Shown here piece after piece: positions 5,019 to 15,752 of a stretch of 20,886 bases of DNA. This DNA comes from a virus, in the IMG/VR virus record IMGVR_UViG_3300021197_001074, positions 1-20,886 of that record; one strand, 5' to 3'. The notes below the pieces were generated by a model that saw only the letters and a program-made list of their open reading frames with translations, was not told the DNA's origin and made no database searches. The translations under genes and the position numbers were made by a program. The stretch's first letter is position 1. Each line of letters starts with the position of its first letter.

Positions 5019-6728
5019 ATGAATGTATTTACTTTTGATATTGAGGCTAACGGCCTCGTCAACCTCGAGCTCGACAACAAAGGTCGAGCCAACACCCGGG
5101 CTGATACCGTACACTGTATCGTAGTCACGAACGTGACGACCGGTGAAGTGCACGCAGCTCGACCTGATAACCTGCAGATGGCACTTGATGTGATGGACAC
5201 CGCTGATGTCCTGATCGGCCATAACATCGTAGGTTACGATATCCCTTGCTTGGAGAAGCTGCTCGGCTGGTCGCCTAAGCCGCATACCAAGCTCGTAGAT
5301 ACCCTGGTTGTCGGCAGACTTATGCATCCCGACCGGACCCAGCTTCCGGAAGGATTGAGAGGACACGCTCTCAAGGATTGGGCTAAGTACGCTGGTAACT
5401 TCAAGCAGGACTACGATGCCGGCTGGGAGTTCTACAGTGAGGAGATGCTGGAGTACTGCATCCAAGATGTGGACGCTAACATCTCTATCTACAAGAAGCA
5501 GTTGCCGTGGATTAAGGAGAACTGGAAGCTCGTGAACTTCGAGCAACAGGTCGCCGCGCTCTGCCAGGATATGACCCGTGATGGCTTCGGTTTCAACACG
5601 GAGAAGGGTGAGAAGCTGCAGTACGAGTTCACTGTACGCCGAGCCGAGATCGAGGATAAGCTGCGTGAGTCTTTCCCGGACATCGTTGAAGAGCGGTGGT
5701 CGGACAAGACTGGCAAGCGCCTTAAGGATAAGGTCACGGCATTCAACCCGGGTTCATCCCAGCAGTGGGCATCCCGCCTCAAGGACAAGTACGGCTGGGT
5801 AGCCAAGACTTCCGAGAAGGGTTATCCGATCGTGGATGAAGAGGTGATGAGCAAGCTGAAGTACGAAGAGGCTCAACTCGGCCTCGAATATCGTGAGATC
5901 AACAAGAAGCTCACGATGGTTACTGACTGGCTCATGCGGGTACAGGACGATGGTTGTATCCATGGTCGCACCAACTCGCAGGGTACTGCCACCGGTCGCG
6001 CTTCACACTCACAGCCCAACCTCGCTCAGGTTCCGTCTGATCCACAGTGTCGAGCATTGTTCGGTCCTAACAAGGATGGTTGGGTTCAGGTTGGCTGTGA
6101 CCTCAGTGGTATCGAGCTTCGCTGTCTCGCCCACTACATGGCTGTGTATGATGATGGGGCTTACTCAAACGAGATCCTGTCAGGTGACATCCATACCCAT
6201 AATCAGCAGGCTGCTGGTCTCCCCACTCGACCAAATGCGAAGACGTTTATCTACGCCTTCCTCTATGGTGCTGGTGATGGTAAGATCGGGCAGATCGTTG
6301 GTGGTAATGCCAAGGATGGTAAGCGTCTCAAGGATCAGTTCTTCGAGAAGATCCCTGCGATGAAGAAGCTGGTCGACGCCGTCACCTATAAGACGATGGA
6401 GACTGGTTCGCTCAAGCTCATTGACGGTCGGACTGTGTTGGTCCGATCTCCTCACAAGGCACTCAACACCCTCTTGCAGGGCGCTGGTGCTATCGTTTCC
6501 AAGGCTTGGCTTGTGATCGCCCGCCAGCAGCTCGATGCTGCCGGCCTCGATTACTCGATCATGGCTTGGGTTCACGATGAGCTTCAGGTTTCTTGTCCTG
6601 CCGATGTCGCTCAGCAGGTCGGTGACATTCTCGTGGCTGCGGCTCGCGAGTCTGGTGACCGTCTTGGTTTCCGTTGTCCTGTTGACGCGGAGTTCGACGT
6701 GGGTGCTGATTGGAGTGCGTGTCACTGA
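5019..6728 (+). CDS. Family A DNA polymerase with 3'-5' exonuclease (T7 gp5-like), no thioredoxin-binding loop
   Basis: Replicative DNA polymerase of 569 aa. Exonuclease residues are present: FDIEANG (D7, E9), GYDIP (D74), QDVDANI (D150). Polymerase motifs: the segment TATGRASHSQPNLAQVP, motif A DLSGIELRCLAHYM (D361), O-helix RPNAKTFIYAFLYG (R404, K408, Y412) and motif C WVHDELQV (D520). The C-terminus VGADWSACH matches the T7 end GPNWAICH, so the protein is complete. It is about 135 residues shorter than T7 gp5 (704 aa). Much of the gap is in the thumb, where the T7 thioredoxin-binding insertion would sit: here only about 20 residues link ESFPDIVEE to FNPGSSQQW (residues 218-250). ATG 5019 has GGAG at 5007-5010, 8 bases upstream. 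Processivity is therefore probably achieved without host thioredoxin (inference). Confidence 0.97.
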   Translation: MNVFTFDIEANGLVNLELDNKGRANTRADTVHCIVVTNVTTGEVHAARPDNLQMALDVMDTADVLIGHNIVGYDIPCLEKLLGWSPKPHTKLVDTLVVGRLMHPDRTQLPEGLRGHALKDWAKYAGNFKQDYDAGWEFYSEEMLEYCIQDVDANISIYKKQLPWIKENWKLVNFEQQVAALCQDMTRDGFGFNTEKGEKLQYEFTVRRAEIEDKLRESFPDIVEERWSDKTGKRLKDKVTAFNPGSSQQWASRLKDKYGWVAKTSEKGYPIVDEEVMSKLKYEEAQLGLEYREINKKLTMVTDWLMRVQDDGCIHGRTNSQGTATGRASHSQPNLAQVPSDPQCRALFGPNKDGWVQVGCDLSGIELRCLAHYMAVYDDGAYSNEILSGDIHTHNQQAAGLPTRPNAKTFIYAFLYGAGDGKIGQIVGGNAKDGKRLKDQFFEKIPAMKKLVDAVTYKTMETGSLKLIDGRTVLVRSPHKALNTLLQGAGAIVSKAWLVIARQQLDAAGLDYSIMAWVHDELQVSCPADVAQQVGDILVAAARESGDRLGFRCPVDAEFDVGADWSACH

Positions 6729-7192
6729 TGCCTACATATCAACTTGTTGCTTATTGTTGGGATGACCAGATTGGTAAGAAGATTCGTAAGGTTACGAACT
6801 CAGGCATAAGCCATGTTACCATCCGCGTCACTCCCTATTGTGGATACTCAAGGGAATTATACGTCACCCCTCAGAGCCGAAGTGATGCTTGGGTTTTGTC
6901 AAAGGCTGTACGTAAGCTGAATGGTCCAGAAGTCTGGAGCAGTAAGCACATTAAGCTATACCACCACCAAGTCGAGTGGATCAAAGGTAGAGCGCGTGAC
7001 TGGGAGCGAAGGCAACCAGGCAGCGTAACCCAGTGCTGGCTGTATCATTACGTAGGCAAGCACCTCGGCTTGCCAGTACCTGAATGCTGTACTAACCTAT
7101 GCAGTTCCGTTCTTAACTACTTGGGTGTTCCAGTAAAAGAGAAGTTCTACCCGAACGCTCTCGTTTCTGAATACCTCCGGGAGACATGCTGA
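6728..7192 (+). CDS. Hypothetical protein, possible permuted NlpC/P60 (papain-like) fold
   Basis: 154 aa, start ATG 6728 in a TGATG overlap with the polymerase stop (the frame extends 18 bases further upstream, but that part lies inside the polymerase). A His in SGISHVTIRV (H29) is followed near the C-terminus by PECCTNLCSSVLNYLG (C121 and C125). A His early and a Cys followed by Thr/Ser late is the order seen in circularly permuted NlpC/P60 proteins such as YiiX, where His and Cys form the active site. No signal peptide or membrane helix. Eight or so cysteines is high for this phage. T7 has its amidase gp3.5 upstream of gene 4, and no such amidase is visible here; whether this gene replaces it is unknown. 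Codon choice is more A/T-rich than in its neighbours. The gene is real; the fold call is tentative. Confidence 0.7.
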   Translation: MPTYQLVAYCWDDQIGKKIRKVTNSGISHVTIRVTPYCGYSRELYVTPQSRSDAWVLSKAVRKLNGPEVWSSKHIKLYHHQVEWIKGRARDWERRQPGSVTQCWLYHYVGKHLGLPVPECCTNLCSSVLNYLGVPVKEKFYPNALVSEYLRETC

Positions 7193-8826: not shown

Positions 8827-9234
8827 ATGATTAAGTATTTTACCTCTGGTAAGTTTGAACCCCAGACAGCCACCGATGGTTCGGCTGGACTGGATCTGTA
8901 TATTGATAATATTAAGGGCGAAAAGCTCCATACTGGCGTCCACGTGGAAATCCCCAAGGGATGGGTTGGACTCTTGCTGCCCCGCTCGTCGTGGGGAATC
9001 AAGGGATTCCAGCTGGCCAACACCTGTGGAGTCATCGACTCCGATTATCGTGGCGAGATCATTATGGTCCGCGATTATCACCCGACCCGTGGCTCTCTCG
9101 TTCTTCGAGAAGGCGATCGCGTCGGCCAATTGATCGTGGTATCCTGTATGTCTAGCGTTTTTAAGTGTGATAGCCTTACCGACCTCAGCTCTACCGAGCG
9201 TGGTTTGGGTGGCTTCGGCTCGACTGGAGGCTGA
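8827..9234 (+). CDS. dut: dUTP diphosphatase (dUTPase), trimeric family
   Basis: Hydrolyses dUTP to dUMP and PPi, keeping uracil out of phage DNA and feeding dTMP synthesis. 135 aa, typical for the homotrimeric family. All five conserved motifs are visible: I ATDGSAGLDLY (15-25), II PRSSWGIKG (52-60), III GVIDSDYRGEI (68-78, with the catalytic Asp D71), IV REGDRVGQLIV (94-104), V STERGLGGFGSTGG (122-135). The start ATG is preceded by AAGGAGATC; a 56-base gap (8771-8826) separates it from the exonuclease gene, one of the few spacers in this block. It ends in a TGATGATG overlap with the ribonucleotide reductase gene, so the two are translationally linked in a dNTP-supply unit. Confidence 0.97.
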   Translation: MIKYFTSGKFEPQTATDGSAGLDLYIDNIKGEKLHTGVHVEIPKGWVGLLLPRSSWGIKGFQLANTCGVIDSDYRGEIIMVRDYHPTRGSLVLREGDRVGQLIVVSCMSSVFKCDSLTDLSSTERGLGGFGSTGG

Positions 9235-9236
9235 TG

Positions 9237-11120
9237 ATGAATATGACACCGTTTCAGACCTTCATTCACCAGAGCAAGTATGCCCGGTGGAACGATGAAG
9301 CAGGAAGACGTGAGAATTGGGGAGAAACGGTAGACCGTTGGTGGGATTGGATGCTTACCAAGGCACCCGAGATTGCCGACCGTATCGACATCCGTGATGC
9401 CGTCTATAACCTCGAGGTCATGCCGAGCATGCGTGCTCTCATGACCGCCGGTCCCGCCGCGGACCGTGATAATACTTCTGTTTACAACTGCTCCTTCCTG
9501 GAGCTTGACTCACCGATCGCCATGGCCGAACTCCTGTACATTCTGATGAATGGTACTGGTGTTGGCTACTCAGTCGAGAGGCGAGTCGTTGATAAGTGGA
9601 ACACCATCCCTGAGGACATCACCCGCGACGAATCTGTCGTGATCAAGGTGAAGGACTCGAAGGCTGGTTGGGCTGATGCCGTCAAGGCATTGCTCTCCAA
9701 CCTTATGGGCGGTGTTCACCCAACCTGGGATATCAGCGCGGTTCGTCCCGCTGGTGCTCGACTTAAGACCTTCGGAGGGCGTGCTTCCGGTCCGGGTCCG
9801 TTGGAAGATTGCATGCGGTTTATTACCAACGCAGTCTACAACGCCCGCGGCCGGCGCTTCCGTCCTATTGAGGTGCATGACATCGCGTGTGTCATCGCCA
9901 ACTCGGTCATCGTCGGCGGCGTTCGTCGCTCGGCTATGATCTCTCTGTCCGACCTGGACGACCACGAGATGGCTCGTGCCAAGTCAGGCAACTGGTGGGA
10001 GGCTCACCCGTATCGAGCTCTCTCTAATAATTCAGCTGTTTACACTCACAAGCCCGAGATGGATGTGTTCATGGAGGAGTGGCTCTCGATCTATCGTAGC
10101 TACTCCGGCGAGCGAGGTATCTTCAATCGTGAAGCTGCCAAGCTCTGCTCCGACGATATTGGTCGGGACCCTGAGCACAACTTCGGTACCAATCCCTGTG
10201 GTGAGATTACTCTTCGCCCCATGCAGTTCTGCAACCTGACGGAAGTCGTGATGCGCCCTGACATGACCGAAGATGAACTTCGCCGCCGCGTCGAGATCGC
10301 TACGATCATCGGCACGGTTCAGTCTAAGTGTACCCACTTCCCGTATCTTCGGAAGGCTTGGCAGCGTAACTCCCAGGAGGAGCGACTGCTTGGTGTCTCG
10401 TTGACGGGTATCCAGGATCACCGCGAGCTTGCTCTTCGTCCCTTCGCTCTGAGCGAGGCACGTAAGATGGCGAAGCAGGTGAATGTGGAGTGGGCTGACA
10501 AGCTCGGTATCGAAGAGTCTAAGGCAGTCACCACGGTCAAGCCTTCGGGCACCGTGTCCTGTCTCGTGGACTCCGCCTCTGGTATCCACCACCGTTATGC
10601 TCCGTACTACATCCGTCGAGTCCGCTGTGACAAGAAGGATCCACTGTTCGAGCTGATGATGGACGCTGGAGTTCCTGGTGAGGATTGTGTGAACAACCCC
10701 ACCAACACCTATGTGTTTGAGTTTGTTATTGGCTACGACGGTCCCGCGACCCGAGGTACGGCTCATGACATGCTTGAAGACTGGGCTACCATTAAGACCC
10801 ACTGGACCGACCATAACCCGTCGGTCACTATCGAGTATCGACCCGAAGAGTTTATGGCTCTTGGTGCTGAGCTTTACGGCGAGCACTGGAACATCGCTCA
10901 GGGTCTCTCCTTCCTTCCTCGTAGTGAGCATGTGTACAAGCAGGCTCCGTATGAAGAGATCACTAAGGCTGAGTATGATGCCCGGCGACAGATGTTCCCG
11001 GATATTGACTGGGCTAAGCTCTCGGATTATGAGAAGGAAGACAATACCAAGTCCTCTCAGACGCTGGCTTGTGCTGGTGGATCCTGTGAGGTTGTTGACA
11101 TTGAATCTGGAAAGGATTGA
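9237..11120 (+). CDS. nrdJ: Class II (adenosylcobalamin-dependent) ribonucleotide reductase, monomeric type
   Basis: Converts ribonucleotides (probably triphosphates) to deoxyribonucleotides with a thiyl radical generated from adenosylcobalamin. 627 aa, shorter than the Lactobacillus leichmannii enzyme (739 aa). Visible hallmarks (numbering from 9237): VYNCSF (C85) and QFCNL (C332), the active-site disulfide pair; NPCGEI (C321 thiyl radical Cys, E323); VKPSGTVSCLVDSASGIH; and the C-terminal redox pair CAGGSC (C612, C617) that passes electrons from thioredoxin or a similar reductant. No partner beta subunit or activase gene lies nearby, in keeping with class II. ATG 9237 is 6 bases after GGAGG (9226-9230); ATG 9234 and ATG 9243 are alternatives. 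No intein or frameshift. Similar enzymes are known in marine T7-like phages and cyanophages. Confidence 0.95.
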   Translation: MNMTPFQTFIHQSKYARWNDEAGRRENWGETVDRWWDWMLTKAPEIADRIDIRDAVYNLEVMPSMRALMTAGPAADRDNTSVYNCSFLELDSPIAMAELLYILMNGTGVGYSVERRVVDKWNTIPEDITRDESVVIKVKDSKAGWADAVKALLSNLMGGVHPTWDISAVRPAGARLKTFGGRASGPGPLEDCMRFITNAVYNARGRRFRPIEVHDIACVIANSVIVGGVRRSAMISLSDLDDHEMARAKSGNWWEAHPYRALSNNSAVYTHKPEMDVFMEEWLSIYRSYSGERGIFNREAAKLCSDDIGRDPEHNFGTNPCGEITLRPMQFCNLTEVVMRPDMTEDELRRRVEIATIIGTVQSKCTHFPYLRKAWQRNSQEERLLGVSLTGIQDHRELALRPFALSEARKMAKQVNVEWADKLGIEESKAVTTVKPSGTVSCLVDSASGIHHRYAPYYIRRVRCDKKDPLFELMMDAGVPGEDCVNNPTNTYVFEFVIGYDGPATRGTAHDMLEDWATIKTHWTDHNPSVTIEYRPEEFMALGAELYGEHWNIAQGLSFLPRSEHVYKQAPYEEITKAEYDARRQMFPDIDWAKLSDYEKEDNTKSSQTLACAGGSCEVVDIESGKD

Positions 11121-11122
11121 AT

Positions 11123-11320
11123 ATGAACTCTATTGACACTATGAAAGCCAAGCTCGCCCGTGGCGGGCAGGTCAATGGCGGTGAGCTTCGGCTCATCGTC
11201 AAGGACTTTCTTGATATTATTGAAACAACTGTGGAGCGTATGAATGAACTCGAGAAGAAGCTCAATGCCAAGCCTAGAGGAGGCGGCTCAGGAACTAAGA
11301 AGCCTGATTCGACCGACTGA
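11123..11320 (+). CDS. Small helical hypothetical protein (65 aa)
   Basis: Function not recognised. ATG 11123 lies two bases after the reductase stop, with AAAGGA at 11111-11116. The central part (LRLIVKDFLDIIETTVERMNELEKKL) is amphipathic and probably forms a short coiled coil; the C-terminus is Gly/Lys-rich and likely disordered (KPRGGGSGTKKPDSTD). No Cys. Its 3' end overlaps the start of the next small gene. The position corresponds to the T7 6.5-7 region, where small proteins of partly known virion or assembly function occur. I would call it real but uncharacterised. Confidence 0.7.
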   Translation: MNSIDTMKAKLARGGQVNGGELRLIVKDFLDIIETTVERMNELEKKLNAKPRGGGSGTKKPDSTD

Positions 11321-11447
11321 CTACGACCAAGCGGCGAGCAGTGAGGCCATTGCTCGTCAGCAGGCGTATCTTGCTGGCCAGCTTTGGGTTCTCGATAAGC
11401 TCGACGCTATGCACACTAAGTACCAGAAGGGAGGCGACAATGCCTGA
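11265..11447 (+). CDS. Small hypothetical protein (60 aa), overlaps neighbours on both sides
   Basis: Function not recognised. The start is uncertain: ATG 11265 (MPSLEEAAQELRSLIRP) is chosen because GAGAAG lies about 8 bases upstream and the overlap with the preceding gene is smaller (56 bases); ATG 11244 would add seven residues. The product is predicted to be all alpha-helical (SSEAIARQQAYLAGQLWVLDKL) and may be a small assembly or structural factor. The stop overlaps the next start by 8 bases. The unusually long overlap with the upstream gene in another frame is odd in this compact genome but both frames look like proteins. Confidence 0.6.
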   Translation: MPSLEEAAQELRSLIRPTDYDQAASSEAIARQQAYLAGQLWVLDKLDAMHTKYQKGGDNA

Positions 11448-12726
11448 AATCTTTAAAAACCTAATGGCGGACTTCGCCGCTACTACTGGATGGTCTTCTA
11501 ATCAGAATGCTGGTGGACTCACGTCAGACATGTTCGAGCGCTCATTCGGCGTTGAGCATGAAATGTTTAGTCGCGAAGCCGCTGGACTAAGATCCCTTTC
11601 CGGTTTGCGAGGAGCCAGACAGTATATGGCTCCCCGTTTGGATGAGTCTCAACAGCTGTATGCTAGCTTCGTTGACGAGTCTAACCGGTACGCTGCTGGT
11701 ATGGATGCTATGCACTCCGCTGCCAGCTTCGAATCAGAAACGTTTATGAATCTTCAAACCCAGCTCGATGCCAGTAAGGCTAAGCTGGGTGCTAACAAGT
11801 CCGCCTCCTCGTTGGGTGCTTATTCTGTGGCTGCCAAGCGGCAGATGCAGGAGACCCAGAGGATGGCGAACGTGTTGAAGGGTATGAATACCCCTCAGCA
11901 GATCGAGATGGATACTACATTCATCAATCCTCTCACCAACAAGCGTGAGGGTCAAGAGGCACAGTTCAATCCGACGGGTCAGGATATTGGAGGCAAAGTC
12001 GCCGACATGATCCGATCTGATTATAAGGATAGACAGAATGCCATCATCTCTGAAGTTGAGAAAGAAGTCACAGCAAAAACTGGTTTCAACATCGACTCGC
12101 TAGAAGGTGGCCAAGCATCAGCCGATCTGATCAGTGAAGGACTTAATAAGCTGGTGCCAAGTACTCACGCGATACATGCAGACGCATTCTGGGAAGATGT
12201 TAACAGCGGTAAGCATGACCATCGTAGTTTCGGAAGTGATTGGACCGTTGGTCAATACCGAAAGTTTAATGAGGCCAAGCAACAGTACTCCGGCGTCCGT
12301 GAGTTCGCGGAATCCCGTGCTCTCGCTGAGATGTCCAGTATGACTGAGGGCTTCAAGGCTTCCGACAATACCGGTAATGTGTACACGACTGGTAGCCAGG
12401 TGTTTCAAGGTGCCGACCGTGATTCTCTTATTGACCAGATGATTGCCGATACTACTACTAAGTACGAGACTCAAAGCCTAAAGGACACTGCCTCTCTCGA
12501 GGCTGAGTTCGAGAAGCGAAAGGGTCTTGCCCTATCTCAAGCTACTGATGTGAGCCGACGCAACAAGCTCAACGCTACCCGCGCTGAGCAGAACCAGCAG
12601 AAGGCTCGCGAGTATGAAAAGCTCCTTGCTCAACAACAGCAGGAGTATGCTTCCACCCTTTCCTCAGCTGGTGCTGTGGATTCTCAATCGGGTGGAGTTA
12701 CTTTTAAAGACATTAGACCCGCATAA
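11440..12726 (+). CDS. Uncharacterised 428-aa protein upstream of the portal, possible internal virion protein
   Basis: No family recognised. ATG 11440 follows GGGAGG and overlaps the previous stop by 8 bases; the longer open frame upstream (to 11341) has no start signal. The protein has no Cys, no signal peptide and no membrane helix. Residues 50-150 are rich in Ala, Ser, Gln and Met and look helical; 190-300 have mixed charge with WEDVNSGKHDHRSFG; 345-405 form a long Gln/Lys/Glu-rich helix (AEQNQQKAREYEKLLAQQQQ), likely coiled coil. In T7 the same slot carries genes 6.7, 7 and 7.3, of which 6.7 and 7.3 encode virion proteins. A virion or ejected protein is therefore a fair guess, but it is based on position and composition only. 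The C-terminus ends just before the next gene, whose AGGAGG overlaps the spacer. Confidence 0.8.
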   Translation: MPEIFKNLMADFAATTGWSSNQNAGGLTSDMFERSFGVEHEMFSREAAGLRSLSGLRGARQYMAPRLDESQQLYASFVDESNRYAAGMDAMHSAASFESETFMNLQTQLDASKAKLGANKSASSLGAYSVAAKRQMQETQRMANVLKGMNTPQQIEMDTTFINPLTNKREGQEAQFNPTGQDIGGKVADMIRSDYKDRQNAIISEVEKEVTAKTGFNIDSLEGGQASADLISEGLNKLVPSTHAIHADAFWEDVNSGKHDHRSFGSDWTVGQYRKFNEAKQQYSGVREFAESRALAEMSSMTEGFKASDNTGNVYTTGSQVFQGADRDSLIDQMIADTTTKYETQSLKDTASLEAEFEKRKGLALSQATDVSRRNKLNATRAEQNQQKAREYEKLLAQQQQEYASTLSSAGAVDSQSGGVTFKDIRPA

Positions 12727-12737
12727 GGAGGTGCCCC

Positions 12738-13091
12738 ATGGGTTCCGGTACTCCAATTATCCAGGGTGGCATGACCGATGCGGAAATGACTGCCCAACTT
12801 GAAAGGCAAGCGGCCGAGAACGACCGCATGCTTGCGCAGGCTGCCTCGCAGACTGCTGCACTCGAAGACCAGATCTCAAAGCAAGATGCTGAGATGCAAG
12901 CACTGGTCGAACAGCAAGCCCGCCAGCAGGAGCTGGACTTGGCTAGCGCGCAGAAGAAGCTCGGCGTAGAGCTTGACGCGATCAGTGAACAGGAAGATAA
13001 GGACGACCTCGAGTTGAACTATGACGCTGTTCAAGCTGCTCTCGCTAAGGGCCTCGGCTCTTCTGCTACCAACTCTGCACGACCTGAATGA
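12738..13091 (+). CDS. Coiled-coil hypothetical protein (117 aa) directly before the portal gene
   Basis: Function not recognised. ATG 12738 is preceded by a near-consensus Shine-Dalgarno AAGGAGGTG, one of the strongest here, suggesting abundant expression as expected for a virion or assembly protein. Residues about 13-90 are almost uninterrupted Ala/Gln/Glu/Lys-rich heptad-like sequence (ERQAAENDRMLAQAASQTAA, EQQARQQELDLASAQKKL), indicating a long coiled coil; the ends are Gly/Ser/Asn-rich. No Cys. T7 gene 7.3 occupies this place but shows no evident similarity. It could be a small tail- or head-assembly protein, or could work with the 428-aa neighbour that also ends in a coiled coil. Confidence 0.75.
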   Translation: MGSGTPIIQGGMTDAEMTAQLERQAAENDRMLAQAASQTAALEDQISKQDAEMQALVEQQARQQELDLASAQKKLGVELDAISEQEDKDDLELNYDAVQAALAKGLGSSATNSARPE

Positions 13092-13101
13092 GAGGTAATT
13101 T

Positions 13102-14742
13102 ATGGCTAACCTGGCAAAACCCGGGACTGGTCAGACAGATGGCACGGTTGCCGCAAGGTTTGTTTCCCTCGACTCGTTGAGAGAAACTAACCTCGAACGC
13201 TCCCGTTATATGGCATCACTGACTATCCCCTCACTTCTGCCGCCTAACGGTATCACCAACAACGGTGCTCTGCCTAAGCCTTTTAGTTCAGTCGCTGCGC
13301 GCGGTGTAACTAATATGGCCAGCCGCATGCTGTCCGCTCTACTTCCGTTGAACGATCTTCCGTTCTTTCGGTTTGAGCTGGCAGACGGCGAGGCTGCAGA
13401 TCCGGAGACTTTCTCCTACATGGAGTCTCTCTCTAATCAAATCTATACGAAGTTGTCCGGCCAGAACCTCCGTGAGTCCATCTTCCTTGCTCTACAAGAG
13501 CTCATCGTAACCGGTGATATTCTTGTCTGTATGGAGGATGATTATACGTTCAAGGTTTATAGGAAGGACCAGTATGTTGTTCGCCGAGATACCGATGGTA
13601 GCCTCAGCGAGCTGATCTACATGGAATGGGTTCCTAAGGATCCCTCAAACCCTATGGTTGAGGCATATGATAATAACTTCTTCCCGTCCGCTTGGAATGC
13701 TATGTCGGCTTTGCCCGACTACCAGGCTAACTTCTACCGCCTCGTGTGGAACAAGGACACGGCAAGATGGGATTACTATGCTGAGACTCAAGCCGGAGAT
13801 TTCATTGACGAAGGTGAATACATCGATCTGCCTTACATGGCACTTCGCTGGATCTCCGTTACGGGTGAAGACTACGGTCGATCCCACGTCGAGGAAATCC
13901 TTGGTGACGTTGAGACTCTCGAGTCTTACACCAAGTCACTCATTGACGGGATGACCGCTGCCAGTACCTTCTGGATGGCTGTCAACCCTGGTGGTATCAC
14001 CGATATCGATGATGTTGCTTTGGCTCCCACTGGTTCCTTCATCGGAGCCCGTATGGAAGACGTGTTCACTGTCTCGCCAGCTCAGTCCCTCAGTCCTCAG
14101 CTCAGCGCTGCTCAGACTGCCGTGGAACAGATGCGACGCGAGGTCGGTGCTGCCTTCCTTCTCGGTTCGGCTGGCGTCCGCCAAGCCGACCGTGTGACCG
14201 CTACCGAAGTCCGTATGATGGGTATGGAAATCGAGAACGTACTCGGTGGAGCCTTCAGCTCTATCGCCCGTACCTTGCTCGAGCCTATCATCCGACGCGC
14301 CATCACTCTCATGATCCGCGAAGGAGAGATTGATGAGCGGCTGGCAGCGGAGTTCATGACGGATGGCCGTCTGACTATTAGTATTGTTACTGGTCTTCAG
14401 GCTCTGTCACGAGACTCGGACGTCACCAGGCTCATGCAGCTCGGTGAGATGGTCCGTAACCTCCCGCCAGAGGCTATCCAGCACTTCCGCTGGGACCAGT
14501 ATGGTATTGCACTTATCTCTTCTCTCGGATTCGACCCGCGTAACTGGGTTCGTAATGAAGAAGAAACCGATGAACGAATGCAGCAACAGCAACAGCAGGC
14601 TATGGAAATGCAAGCACAGGCTACGATGGCACAAGGTGCCGCGCAAGGAGCCGGTGCGGGTATGGGCCAAGCAGCTGCTACTGGTATCACTGAAGCTGCT
14701 ATGAACATGATGCAGGGTGGACAAGCTCCGCCAACTGTCTAA
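13102..14742 (+). CDS. Portal / head-tail connector protein (T7 gp8-like)
   Basis: Dodecameric portal through which DNA is packaged and ejected; 546 aa, close to T7 gp8 (536 aa). Recognisable portal features include the N-terminal RFVSLDSLRETNLERSRYMA, LPKPFSSVAARGVTNMASRM, ALLPLNDLPFF, the middle GEDYGRSHVEEILGDVETLE, and GSAGVRQADRVTATEVRMMG followed by an extended helical region. The C-terminal 50 residues are Gln/Met/Ala-rich, with a run of six Gln codons (CAG/CAA repeats at about 14581-14600). The start ATG has GAGAGG about 6 bases upstream. It is followed, 11 bases later, by the scaffold gene, the standard T7 arrangement. Confidence 0.96.
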   Translation: MANLAKPGTGQTDGTVAARFVSLDSLRETNLERSRYMASLTIPSLLPPNGITNNGALPKPFSSVAARGVTNMASRMLSALLPLNDLPFFRFELADGEAADPETFSYMESLSNQIYTKLSGQNLRESIFLALQELIVTGDILVCMEDDYTFKVYRKDQYVVRRDTDGSLSELIYMEWVPKDPSNPMVEAYDNNFFPSAWNAMSALPDYQANFYRLVWNKDTARWDYYAETQAGDFIDEGEYIDLPYMALRWISVTGEDYGRSHVEEILGDVETLESYTKSLIDGMTAASTFWMAVNPGGITDIDDVALAPTGSFIGARMEDVFTVSPAQSLSPQLSAAQTAVEQMRREVGAAFLLGSAGVRQADRVTATEVRMMGMEIENVLGGAFSSIARTLLEPIIRRAITLMIREGEIDERLAAEFMTDGRLTISIVTGLQALSRDSDVTRLMQLGEMVRNLPPEAIQHFRWDQYGIALISSLGFDPRNWVRNEEETDERMQQQQQQAMEMQAQATMAQGAAQGAGAGMGQAAATGITEAAMNMMQGGQAPPTV

Positions 14743-14753
14743 GGAGATTCACT

Positions 14754-15752
14754 ATGACTGAAGAAAGTAATGGAGACTACCGCGAGGAAGTGTCGACCGA
14801 ATCGGCAACTCCTGGCAAGGACGCACCTATGACTACGGAAGCAATGGCTGGCCTCGATGCCGTCAATGCTGACCCACTCGCTGACAACGCTACCAAGCAG
14901 GCCGCTCATGAGCGAGCCATGTTCGAGCGCTACGTCCAAGACAACGGACAGAAGATCCCTGAGAACTTCAAGTCCGCTGGCGATTGGTTCGACTCCCTTA
15001 AGGGTGCTCAATCACAGTACACTAAGTCCCAGCAGGAAGTTGCTGCCCTTAAGAGGCAGTACGAGATGGCTGGGAATACTGAGAATCCTGATTACGTGCC
15101 CGCTGCACCGGAAGCCGCTCCCGCTGTGGAAGCTCCCGCCAGTAGCGAGCCCGCTCTTGAAGAGCTGCGCATCCCTACTCCCGAGGCCAAGGACGAGACT
15201 CCAGATGTAGAGTCTCCTACCGCTCGGGTTACGGATGCAGACTATGCCAAGTGGCAGACTGAGGTCGCCACTACTGGTACGCTCAGTGCCGAAGCCCGTA
15301 ACGACATTAAGGCTAAGACTGGCTTCACTGAGTCTATGGTTGATGATTATCTCTCCGCCCAGCAGGCTAAGCGACGCCAGGCATTTGCCAACGCCGCTGA
15401 GATTGTTGGTGGTGGAGATAACCTCTCGAAGATCCTGCGTTGGGCAGCGAATAATTTTGCCGGTGAGCAGCTACAGGGCTTGCAGGCAGGACTCGCTGGT
15501 CCTAACTCGGAGCTGACCCTTCGAGGACTTGCTGCCGCTTACTCTCAGCAGTCTGGTTCATCTGAGCCGGCTGCCGAAAAGAAGCAGGCAGTTTCTCCCG
15601 CTACGGCTAATGCCACAAGGGAACTCCCGGGTTATAAGTCCATGGATGAATATCGTATGGATATGTCTAACCCTCGTTTTAAGCGTGACGATCAGTTCCG
15701 ACGAGCTGTTGAGACACGTGCCGCACGGACCGACTGGCGTCAGCTTGGCTGA
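14754..15752 (+). CDS. Capsid assembly scaffolding protein (T7 gp9-like)
   Basis: Internal scaffold that guides capsid assembly and leaves the procapsid before DNA packaging. 332 aa, acidic, rich in Ala/Glu/Pro, with little similarity to other proteins as is usual for T7-type scaffolds; the assignment rests mainly on position between portal and capsid, composition and size (T7 gp9 307 aa). A Pro/Ala/Glu-rich linker covers about 115-165 (EAAPAVEAPASSEPALEELR). The C-terminus MDEYRMDMSNPRFKRDDQF resembles the short helical, basic end that contacts the capsid protein in other scaffolds. Shine-Dalgarno AAGGAG lies 8 bases before ATG 14754. A tiny frame follows immediately (15754-15840). Confidence 0.9.
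   Translation: MTEESNGDYREEVSTESATPGKDAPMTTEAMAGLDAVNADPLADNATKQAAHERAMFERYVQDNGQKIPENFKSAGDWFDSLKGAQSQYTKSQQEVAALKRQYEMAGNTENPDYVPAAPEAAPAVEAPASSEPALEELRIPTPEAKDETPDVESPTARVTDADYAKWQTEVATTGTLSAEARNDIKAKTGFTESMVDDYLSAQQAKRRQAFANAAEIVGGGDNLSKILRWAANNFAGEQLQGLQAGLAGPNSELTLRGLAAAYSQQSGSSEPAAEKKQAVSPATANATRELPGYKSMDEYRMDMSNPRFKRDDQFRRAVETRAARTDWRQLG

Follow-up and report, generated by a model that had tools for sequence, protein, structure and literature searches.

Two adjacent genes, here called L and S, lying directly 5' of the portal gene in a lineage of T7-type podoviruses represented solely by environmental DNA, encode proteins without detectable homology to each other that end in an identical short tail, Arg-Pro-x (RPx), a new feature that a sequence-only reading of the same DNA had not recorded. 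From the observed genes, their fixed position, the common tail, the absence of cysteine, the divergence rates and the predicted helices, we infer that L and S could be lineage-specific internal virion proteins for DNA delivery, probably ejected or serving core assembly, docked at one portal-tail site through Arg-Pro-x. We regard this proposal, which extends to their presence in the virion, their ejection, their docking site and their individual roles, as evenly poised.

Genes L and S, their neighbours and their relatives

The window, by which we mean the whole stretch of DNA analysed, is a 20,886-base record of a T7-type podovirus, and its gene content marks it as a fragment. The structural block runs in the order L, S, portal, scaffold, capsid and two tail tube genes, the last of which is assigned by position. 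The features of the region are as follows.

11244..11447, + strand: 67-aa ORF 5' of L, with weak likeness to the short gp6.5-position ORF of other T7-type phages
11440..12726, + strand: L, 428 aa, Cys-free, mostly helical in its model, in the T7 6.7/7 slot (ORF, ribosome-binding site, 20/20 loci, AF2 model)
11806..11865, + strand: L residues 123-142 (SSLGAYSVAAKRQMQETQRM), more conserved than any other stretch in the N-terminal half (alignments)
12487..12666, + strand: L residues 350-409, predicted long C-terminal helix with invariant E356, F357, R360, Q399, E402 and Y403 (model, alignments)
12676..12723, + strand: L residues 413-428, loose C-terminal tail with pLDDT <50; F422 and R426-P427 invariant
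12738..13091, + strand: S, 117 aa, acidic, Cys-free, one long predicted helix, in the T7 7.3 slot (ORF, ribosome-binding site, alignment, model)
12741..12776, + strand: S residues 2-13, conserved N-terminal motif of the G-G-x-P-I-I-x-G-G type, no helix predicted
12777..13055, + strand: S residues 14-106, single predicted helix (model)
13080..13085, + strand: S invariant R115-P116 of the C-terminal RPx (13/13 sequences)
13102..14742, + strand: portal (head-tail connector), the fixed right-hand neighbour (PF12236, E 1.8e-59; phrog_449, E 1e-106)
14754-15752: scaffold (Pfam PF05396, E 7.5e-8)

The two genes and the strong ribosome-binding sites described in the sequence-only reading were borne out. 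L starts at ATG 11440, with GGAGG at 11430-11434, and its stop codon ends at 12726; the longest reading of the frame opens at GTG 11341, and the ribosome site belongs to the ATG. Its ORF translates into 428 aa with no cysteine. S occupies 12738-13091 (117 aa), with AGGAGG at 12726-12731. Both genes are genuinely coding, since relatives differ from one another mainly at third codon positions: at codon positions 1/2/3, L showed 41/30/179 differences between loci L013 and L016 and 137/114/232 between the window and locus L004, and S showed 21/13/61 in the latter pair.

The claim that the pair fills the T7 slot ahead of the portal also holds, as L and S lie between the portal and the short gp6.5-like ORF, whose likeness is weak (11244..11447; hhalign E 0.0027, probability 11%), where T7 has 6.7-7-7.3. 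The T7 order is 6.5, 6.7, 7, 7.3, 7.7, portal, with 7.7 separating 7.3 from 8. Both proteins had been called much larger than their T7 counterparts, which is right for L and wrong for S (117 aa versus 99 aa for gp7.3). Further upstream, window positions 9234-11120 encode a Class II (adenosylcobalamin-type) ribonucleotide reductase whose best matches in the phage collection come from roseophages (about 53-55% identity); the three roseophage records inspected at the reductase have different genes behind it. A search for the host found no portal relative among genome contigs.

Searching directly with L, or with early alignments of the two proteins, returned two contigs. The portal as query returned 19 loci, those two contigs included, and L052 was added when the S alignment was used subsequently; in L006 the sequence 5' of the portal is absent. 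An L-like gene followed by an S-like gene stands directly 5' of the portal in 20/20 loci holding that stretch, the window included, and S thus has in every one the position of the gp7.3 family, within the block that precedes the portal. The L of L004, used in a protein search, matched 11/11 queried records.

Protein statistics were computed on the 13 distinct, complete loci among the 20, the window included. Five of the dropped loci (L003, L008, L018, L019 and L020) have an L 99.8-100% identical to that of a kept locus; L010 was dropped as a near-copy of L011 (L 94%, S 100% identical), and L009, which is distinct, holds only the last 105 aa of L. L008 was included in the long-contig counts, and the S of L009 in S alignments A6 and A8. 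Across the kept loci, L has 399-540 aa and S 116-144 aa, and identity to the window is 18-55% for L, 44-76% for S and 63-86% for the portal.

Several of these loci show peculiarities of their own. The L010 sequence to the left of about base 970 is no continuation of the L gene seen in L011, and in L052:1-474 a cut reductase ORF runs into sequence unlike reductase; each could be an assembly chimera or a real junction. In the capsid gene region of L008, a 222-aa ORF (5056-5724, +), a LAGLIDADG-type homing endonuclease by eye, is followed by a 354-aa capsid piece, a possible intein or intron. In L020, a 156-aa ORF (6400-6870, +), an HNH endonuclease by eye, precedes a late-starting reductase piece, which may indicate an intron in the ribonucleotide reductase gene.

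Neither protein belongs to a recognised family, as had been noted from the sequence, and PHROGs, Pfam, PDB sequences and the phage collection gave no convincing match. The closest PHROGs result was phrog_31398, for 2/13 S (best E 0.0049). In Pfam nothing exceeded the cut-off for either protein (chance-level ArsA_ATPase, E 0.03, and PEP_C, E 0.03), including the T7-type scaffold family PF05396, which the neighbour at 14754-15752 does match. Searches of 50,697 phage records by tblastn found no match for the window's L and S or for one relative of each, and PDB sequences yielded only ten chance-level coiled coils (E >=0.33).

The AF2 model of L, built on an alignment of 17 sequences, is of moderate confidence (mean pLDDT 70.8, pTM 0.49) and mostly helical, with long helices and a final 16 residues of pLDDT <50. 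A fold search with it against PDB and BFVD gave no match at E <=0.001. With VIA-align 2, long-helix bundles, among them alpha-pore-forming toxins and BAR domains, scored Z values of up to 10.2; reading L as a toxin was rejected, as many of these matches are at large rmsd and VIA-align 2 calls such matches common for helical models. The S model (15 sequences; mean pLDDT 74.5, pTM 0.32) is likewise of moderate confidence, with loose ends. Gln-rich coiled coils, through which the two might interact, had been suggested for both proteins. The description applies loosely. In the window, Gln makes up 12.8% of S and 11.2% of the final 80 residues of L, and the lowest values across the 13 loci are 3.5% (S) and 7.5% (L tail); the models have long helices.

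The shared C-terminal Arg-Pro-x

RPx closes 13/13 L and 13/13 S sequences, and both genes of all seven dropped loci end likewise. L ends, for example, in DIRPA, DTRPM or DDRPQ and S in SARPE, GARPL or GMRPV; among the last three residues only R and P are fixed, and the final residue varies. In the window's L, the RP codons lie at 12715-12720. The codons of the tail vary between genomes, with Arg written by AGA and by CGN, so the conservation is of the protein. For the same reason, the idea that these codons form part of the next gene's ribosome site was dropped.

The ending is specific to the pair. Four long contigs of 42-57 kb, read in pieces, gave 186 ORFs (complete, >=60 aa, longest first), and the eight that end in RPx are exactly the four L and the four S. 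Within <=600 bases of the portal, each of 19 loci has exactly two RPx-ending ORFs, again L and S. A common origin of the two proteins is unsupported (hhalign probability 4.5%). The titles and abstracts returned by a narrow literature search, which held no query for RPx itself, describe no such pair or tail.

A tail of this kind might also be a processing, stability or host-directed signal, such as a site for a C-terminal-binding factor of phage or host in the infected cell, instead of a docking tag, and be all that L and S share. Such a signal would suit a loose tail in which only R and P are fixed and the last residue is variable; the absence of the ending from all the other ORFs among the 186 argues against it, and we judge it decidedly unlikely.

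Cysteine content and divergence rates

The 13 L and 13 S proteins contain no cysteine in 7,485 aa summed. In the dropped loci, the longest L reading of L010 has one, at residue 24, in a part that is absent from L011 and resembles a contig junction; the others have none in L or S. As controls, we used six named podophages (T7 NC_001604, phiKMV, P22, LUZ100, P-SSP7 and HTVC048P), whose proteins were picked by annotation and position, leaving aside T7 gp13 (3 Cys) with its counterparts, as well as P22 gp14 and P22 Orf69, and counting phiKMV gp29, P-SSP7 023, HTVC048P gp32 and LUZ100 gp33 as internal by slot only. Among the 24 ejected or internal proteins, there are 8 Cys in 12,889 aa, 7 of the 8 at residue 2, against 84 Cys in 15,419 aa for 32 other virion proteins (5/32 Cys-free); six scaffolds, all acidic, hold 0 Cys in 1,707 aa. 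Taken as sets, the ejected/internal proteins and the scaffolds have a cysteine content lower than that of the other virion proteins by a factor of about nine or more (Mann-Whitney p 0.0027 for ejected/internal versus other virion proteins, the proteins not being independent).

Within the lineage, the putative core proteins encoded behind the terminase gene are also free of cysteine (0 in 11 sequences or parts), and the portal, tubes, terminase and, where read, capsid contain some. L and S fit near-absence of cysteine as an ejection-protein marker, one derived in this analysis and unpublished, and scaffolds fit it too. The four long contigs also contain nine other Cys-free ORFs of >=110 aa (135, 120, 116, 238, 274, 672, 547, 172 and 136 aa; L, S, scaffold and the putative core trio not counted), some of them likely tail-fibre genes, so the absence is not an exclusive marker. 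It cannot tell ejected proteins from scaffolds. Titles and abstracts from a narrow literature search held nothing on cysteine loss in ejection proteins, and the word cysteine does not occur in the review PMC8954989. The cysteine count would be a cheap candidate marker for ejected or scaffold proteins among uncharacterised genes of uncultured phages, alongside position and divergence rate.

A cysteine at residue 2 occurs both in the gp14-position protein and in a 6.7/7.3-slot protein of T7 (gp14/gp6.7), P-SSP7 (033/023) and HTVC048P (gp41/gp32), a common N-terminal element that parallels the common C-terminal RPx of L and S.

The same counts bear on whether L and S are ordinary accessory proteins, unrelated to the virion and there by chance. 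Their lack of a family match would agree with this; they stand, however, at the head of the structural block in 20/20 loci, and they are Cys-free, whereas the window's eleven genes from RNA polymerase to reductase hold 1-12 Cys each (the two 67-aa ORFs before L have none). We consider a chance presence highly improbable.

Divergence was compared in three genomes (G003, G006 and G009), using as a yardstick a putative 14/15/16-like trio of core proteins that is assigned by position and size alone. Identity is 28-37% for L, close to the putative 15-like (25-32%) and 16-like proteins (22-42% over the first 1,400 residues), and 53-66% for S, which is slower than L; the 14-like protein lies at 40-71%, the tubes at 54-72%, the scaffold at 61-68%, the portal at 70-83% and TerL at 74-83%. 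In these three genomes, divergence is far above that of portal and terminase for L and intermediate for S. Passages of PMC8954989 report a similar contrast elsewhere (gp15-like 34% versus portal 69%) and state that ejection proteins are often matched by size and synteny alone.

The putative trio (213-252, 998-1,140 and up to 3,494 aa) is found in L021, L024, L025 and L028 behind the terminase gene and well away from the genes for the tail tube; T7 differs, its genes 14-16 coming after gene 12. The largest member, a Cys-free protein of 3,494 aa (L028:622-11106, -), follows the putative 14- and 15-like genes; towards its C terminus it weakly resembles a polyvalent-protein ADP-ribosyltransferase domain, at a sub-threshold E of 0.0025. 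The putative gp14-like protein has no profile link to T7 gp14 or HTVC048P gp41, and tblastn against the phage records found none for one putative gp14-like protein or for the first 1,000 aa of one putative gp16-like protein.

The main rival to our proposal is that L and S act as assembly factors, either as a second scaffold or as a chaperone for portal and core. They would bind portal or scaffold through RPx while the head is being built and be absent from, or dispensable in, the finished virion. They are acidic, Cys-free and helical and lie beside portal and scaffold genes, and the six tested scaffolds are Cys-free and acidic as well. Unlike the T7-type scaffold PF05396, however, L diverges far faster (28-37% versus 61-68% in the same three genomes), and a scaffold is already encoded in its usual place, by its own gene at 14754-15752. 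We hold the assembly-factor reading to be possible, if rather doubtful.

Comparison with known systems and a proposed role

The ejected or head-tail role suggested earlier for both proteins receives indirect support from the missing cysteine, the divergence rate of L, the synteny and the helical models with loose tails. For a closer comparison, passages of the 2024 paper PMC11784390, which presents the first in-place structures of gp6.7 and gp7.3, describe how both T7 proteins are held. What is resolved of each is a short docking element: gp6.7 encircles the portal barrel with an N-terminal loop (2-15), and a C-terminal loop of gp7.3 (84-98) is anchored to the nozzle gp12.

Like S, T7 gp7.3, an ejected virion protein of tail assembly, comes from the before-portal block, has about 100 aa and lacks cysteine. 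The two differ in charge, gp7.3 being at +10 and in contact with the DNA end and S at -13, and in their last residues, GGGINI in gp7.3 and RPx in S; several gp7.3-type tails read G-x-N-x (T7, Pasto, TRX32-1, LUZ100), unlike RPx. Net charge is negative in all 13 loci for both S (-7 to -16) and L (-2 to -26), whereas ten T7-type slot proteins from eight phages lie at +3 to +14. S is thus not strongly basic and, being acidic where the T7-type slot proteins are basic, is unlikely to grip the DNA end as gp7.3 does. Kinship of the pair with gp7.3-type proteins is unsupported: the charge is opposite, and S lacks profile homology, with an hhalign probability of 0.15% between S profile A8 and profile A10 of 8 gp7.3-position proteins.

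L resembles gp6.7, a core protein which bridges portal barrel, gp14 and gp15 and acts by short loops binding portal and core, in its before-portal slot. It departs from it in composition and size: gp6.7 has 88 aa, is basic and starts with Met-Cys, and L is acidic and Cys-free with 399-540 aa. Neither sequence, with no PHROG or Pfam match, nor length (399-540 versus 88 aa) places L in the gp6.7 family. With gp14/gp15/gp16 of podophages and EP3/OEP/TEP of phiM1 it has its poverty in cysteine in common, and gp15/gp16 are also fast-evolving. Its hhalign comparisons with T7 gp14 and gp15 were insignificant. A further difference from the known ejection proteins is that, besides L and S, the lineage encodes a putative 14/15/16-like trio of its own, located behind the terminase gene.

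These comparisons bear on whether L and S share ancestry with T7 gp6.7/gp7 and gp7.3 and have diverged so far that the similarity can no longer be detected. The before-portal slot is identical, the small neighbouring ORF is weakly gp6.5-position-like and the length of S is near that of gp7.3. S, on the other hand, shows no profile similarity, carries the opposite net charge, is modelled as one long helix and ends in RPx where gp7.3-type tails read G-x-N-x. Homology of this kind seems unlikely to us. The pair may work like gp6.7/gp7.3, and membership in either family is unsupported.

In our preferred reading, that of internal DNA-delivery proteins, L and S would be produced together with the portal as a single block. 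Their place would be on or inside the portal-tail channel, and they would probably exit with the core proteins at infection. Until then, their loose C-terminal tails would hold them in place, and RPx would fit one common site, for which the portal barrel, the adaptor or the nozzle lumen are candidates. Conserved loose RPx tails fit the docking pattern of T7 and phiM1, where, according to passages of PMC11440229, an octamer of EP3 bridges the 8-fold core interface and the 12-fold portal, and on this ground we propose that both proteins dock at one portal-tail site. S would be a helical rod with a conserved motif at either end, serving as a spacer or assembly guide and working in a gp7.3-like manner. 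L would be a larger helical protein linking the portal to the core, much as T7 gp6.7/gp14 or the EP3 adaptor of phiM1 do.

A more specific and tentative suggestion, which we put forward with some doubt, is that RPx acts as an address tag that loads two non-homologous internal proteins on one portal-tail site. Both could then be loaded together, so as to match rings that differ in symmetry, or one after the other, S occupying the site during assembly and then handing it to L.

Even in T7, work continues on how the small internal proteins come to sit on the portal and are driven through the tail. Unrelated proteins with two identical fixed residues near their ends offer a short, testable docking element. 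Encapsulin cargo peptides follow a comparable logic. If the address-tag reading is true, RPx would be a loading code for ejection cargo, and it could serve to address foreign proteins to the phage head.
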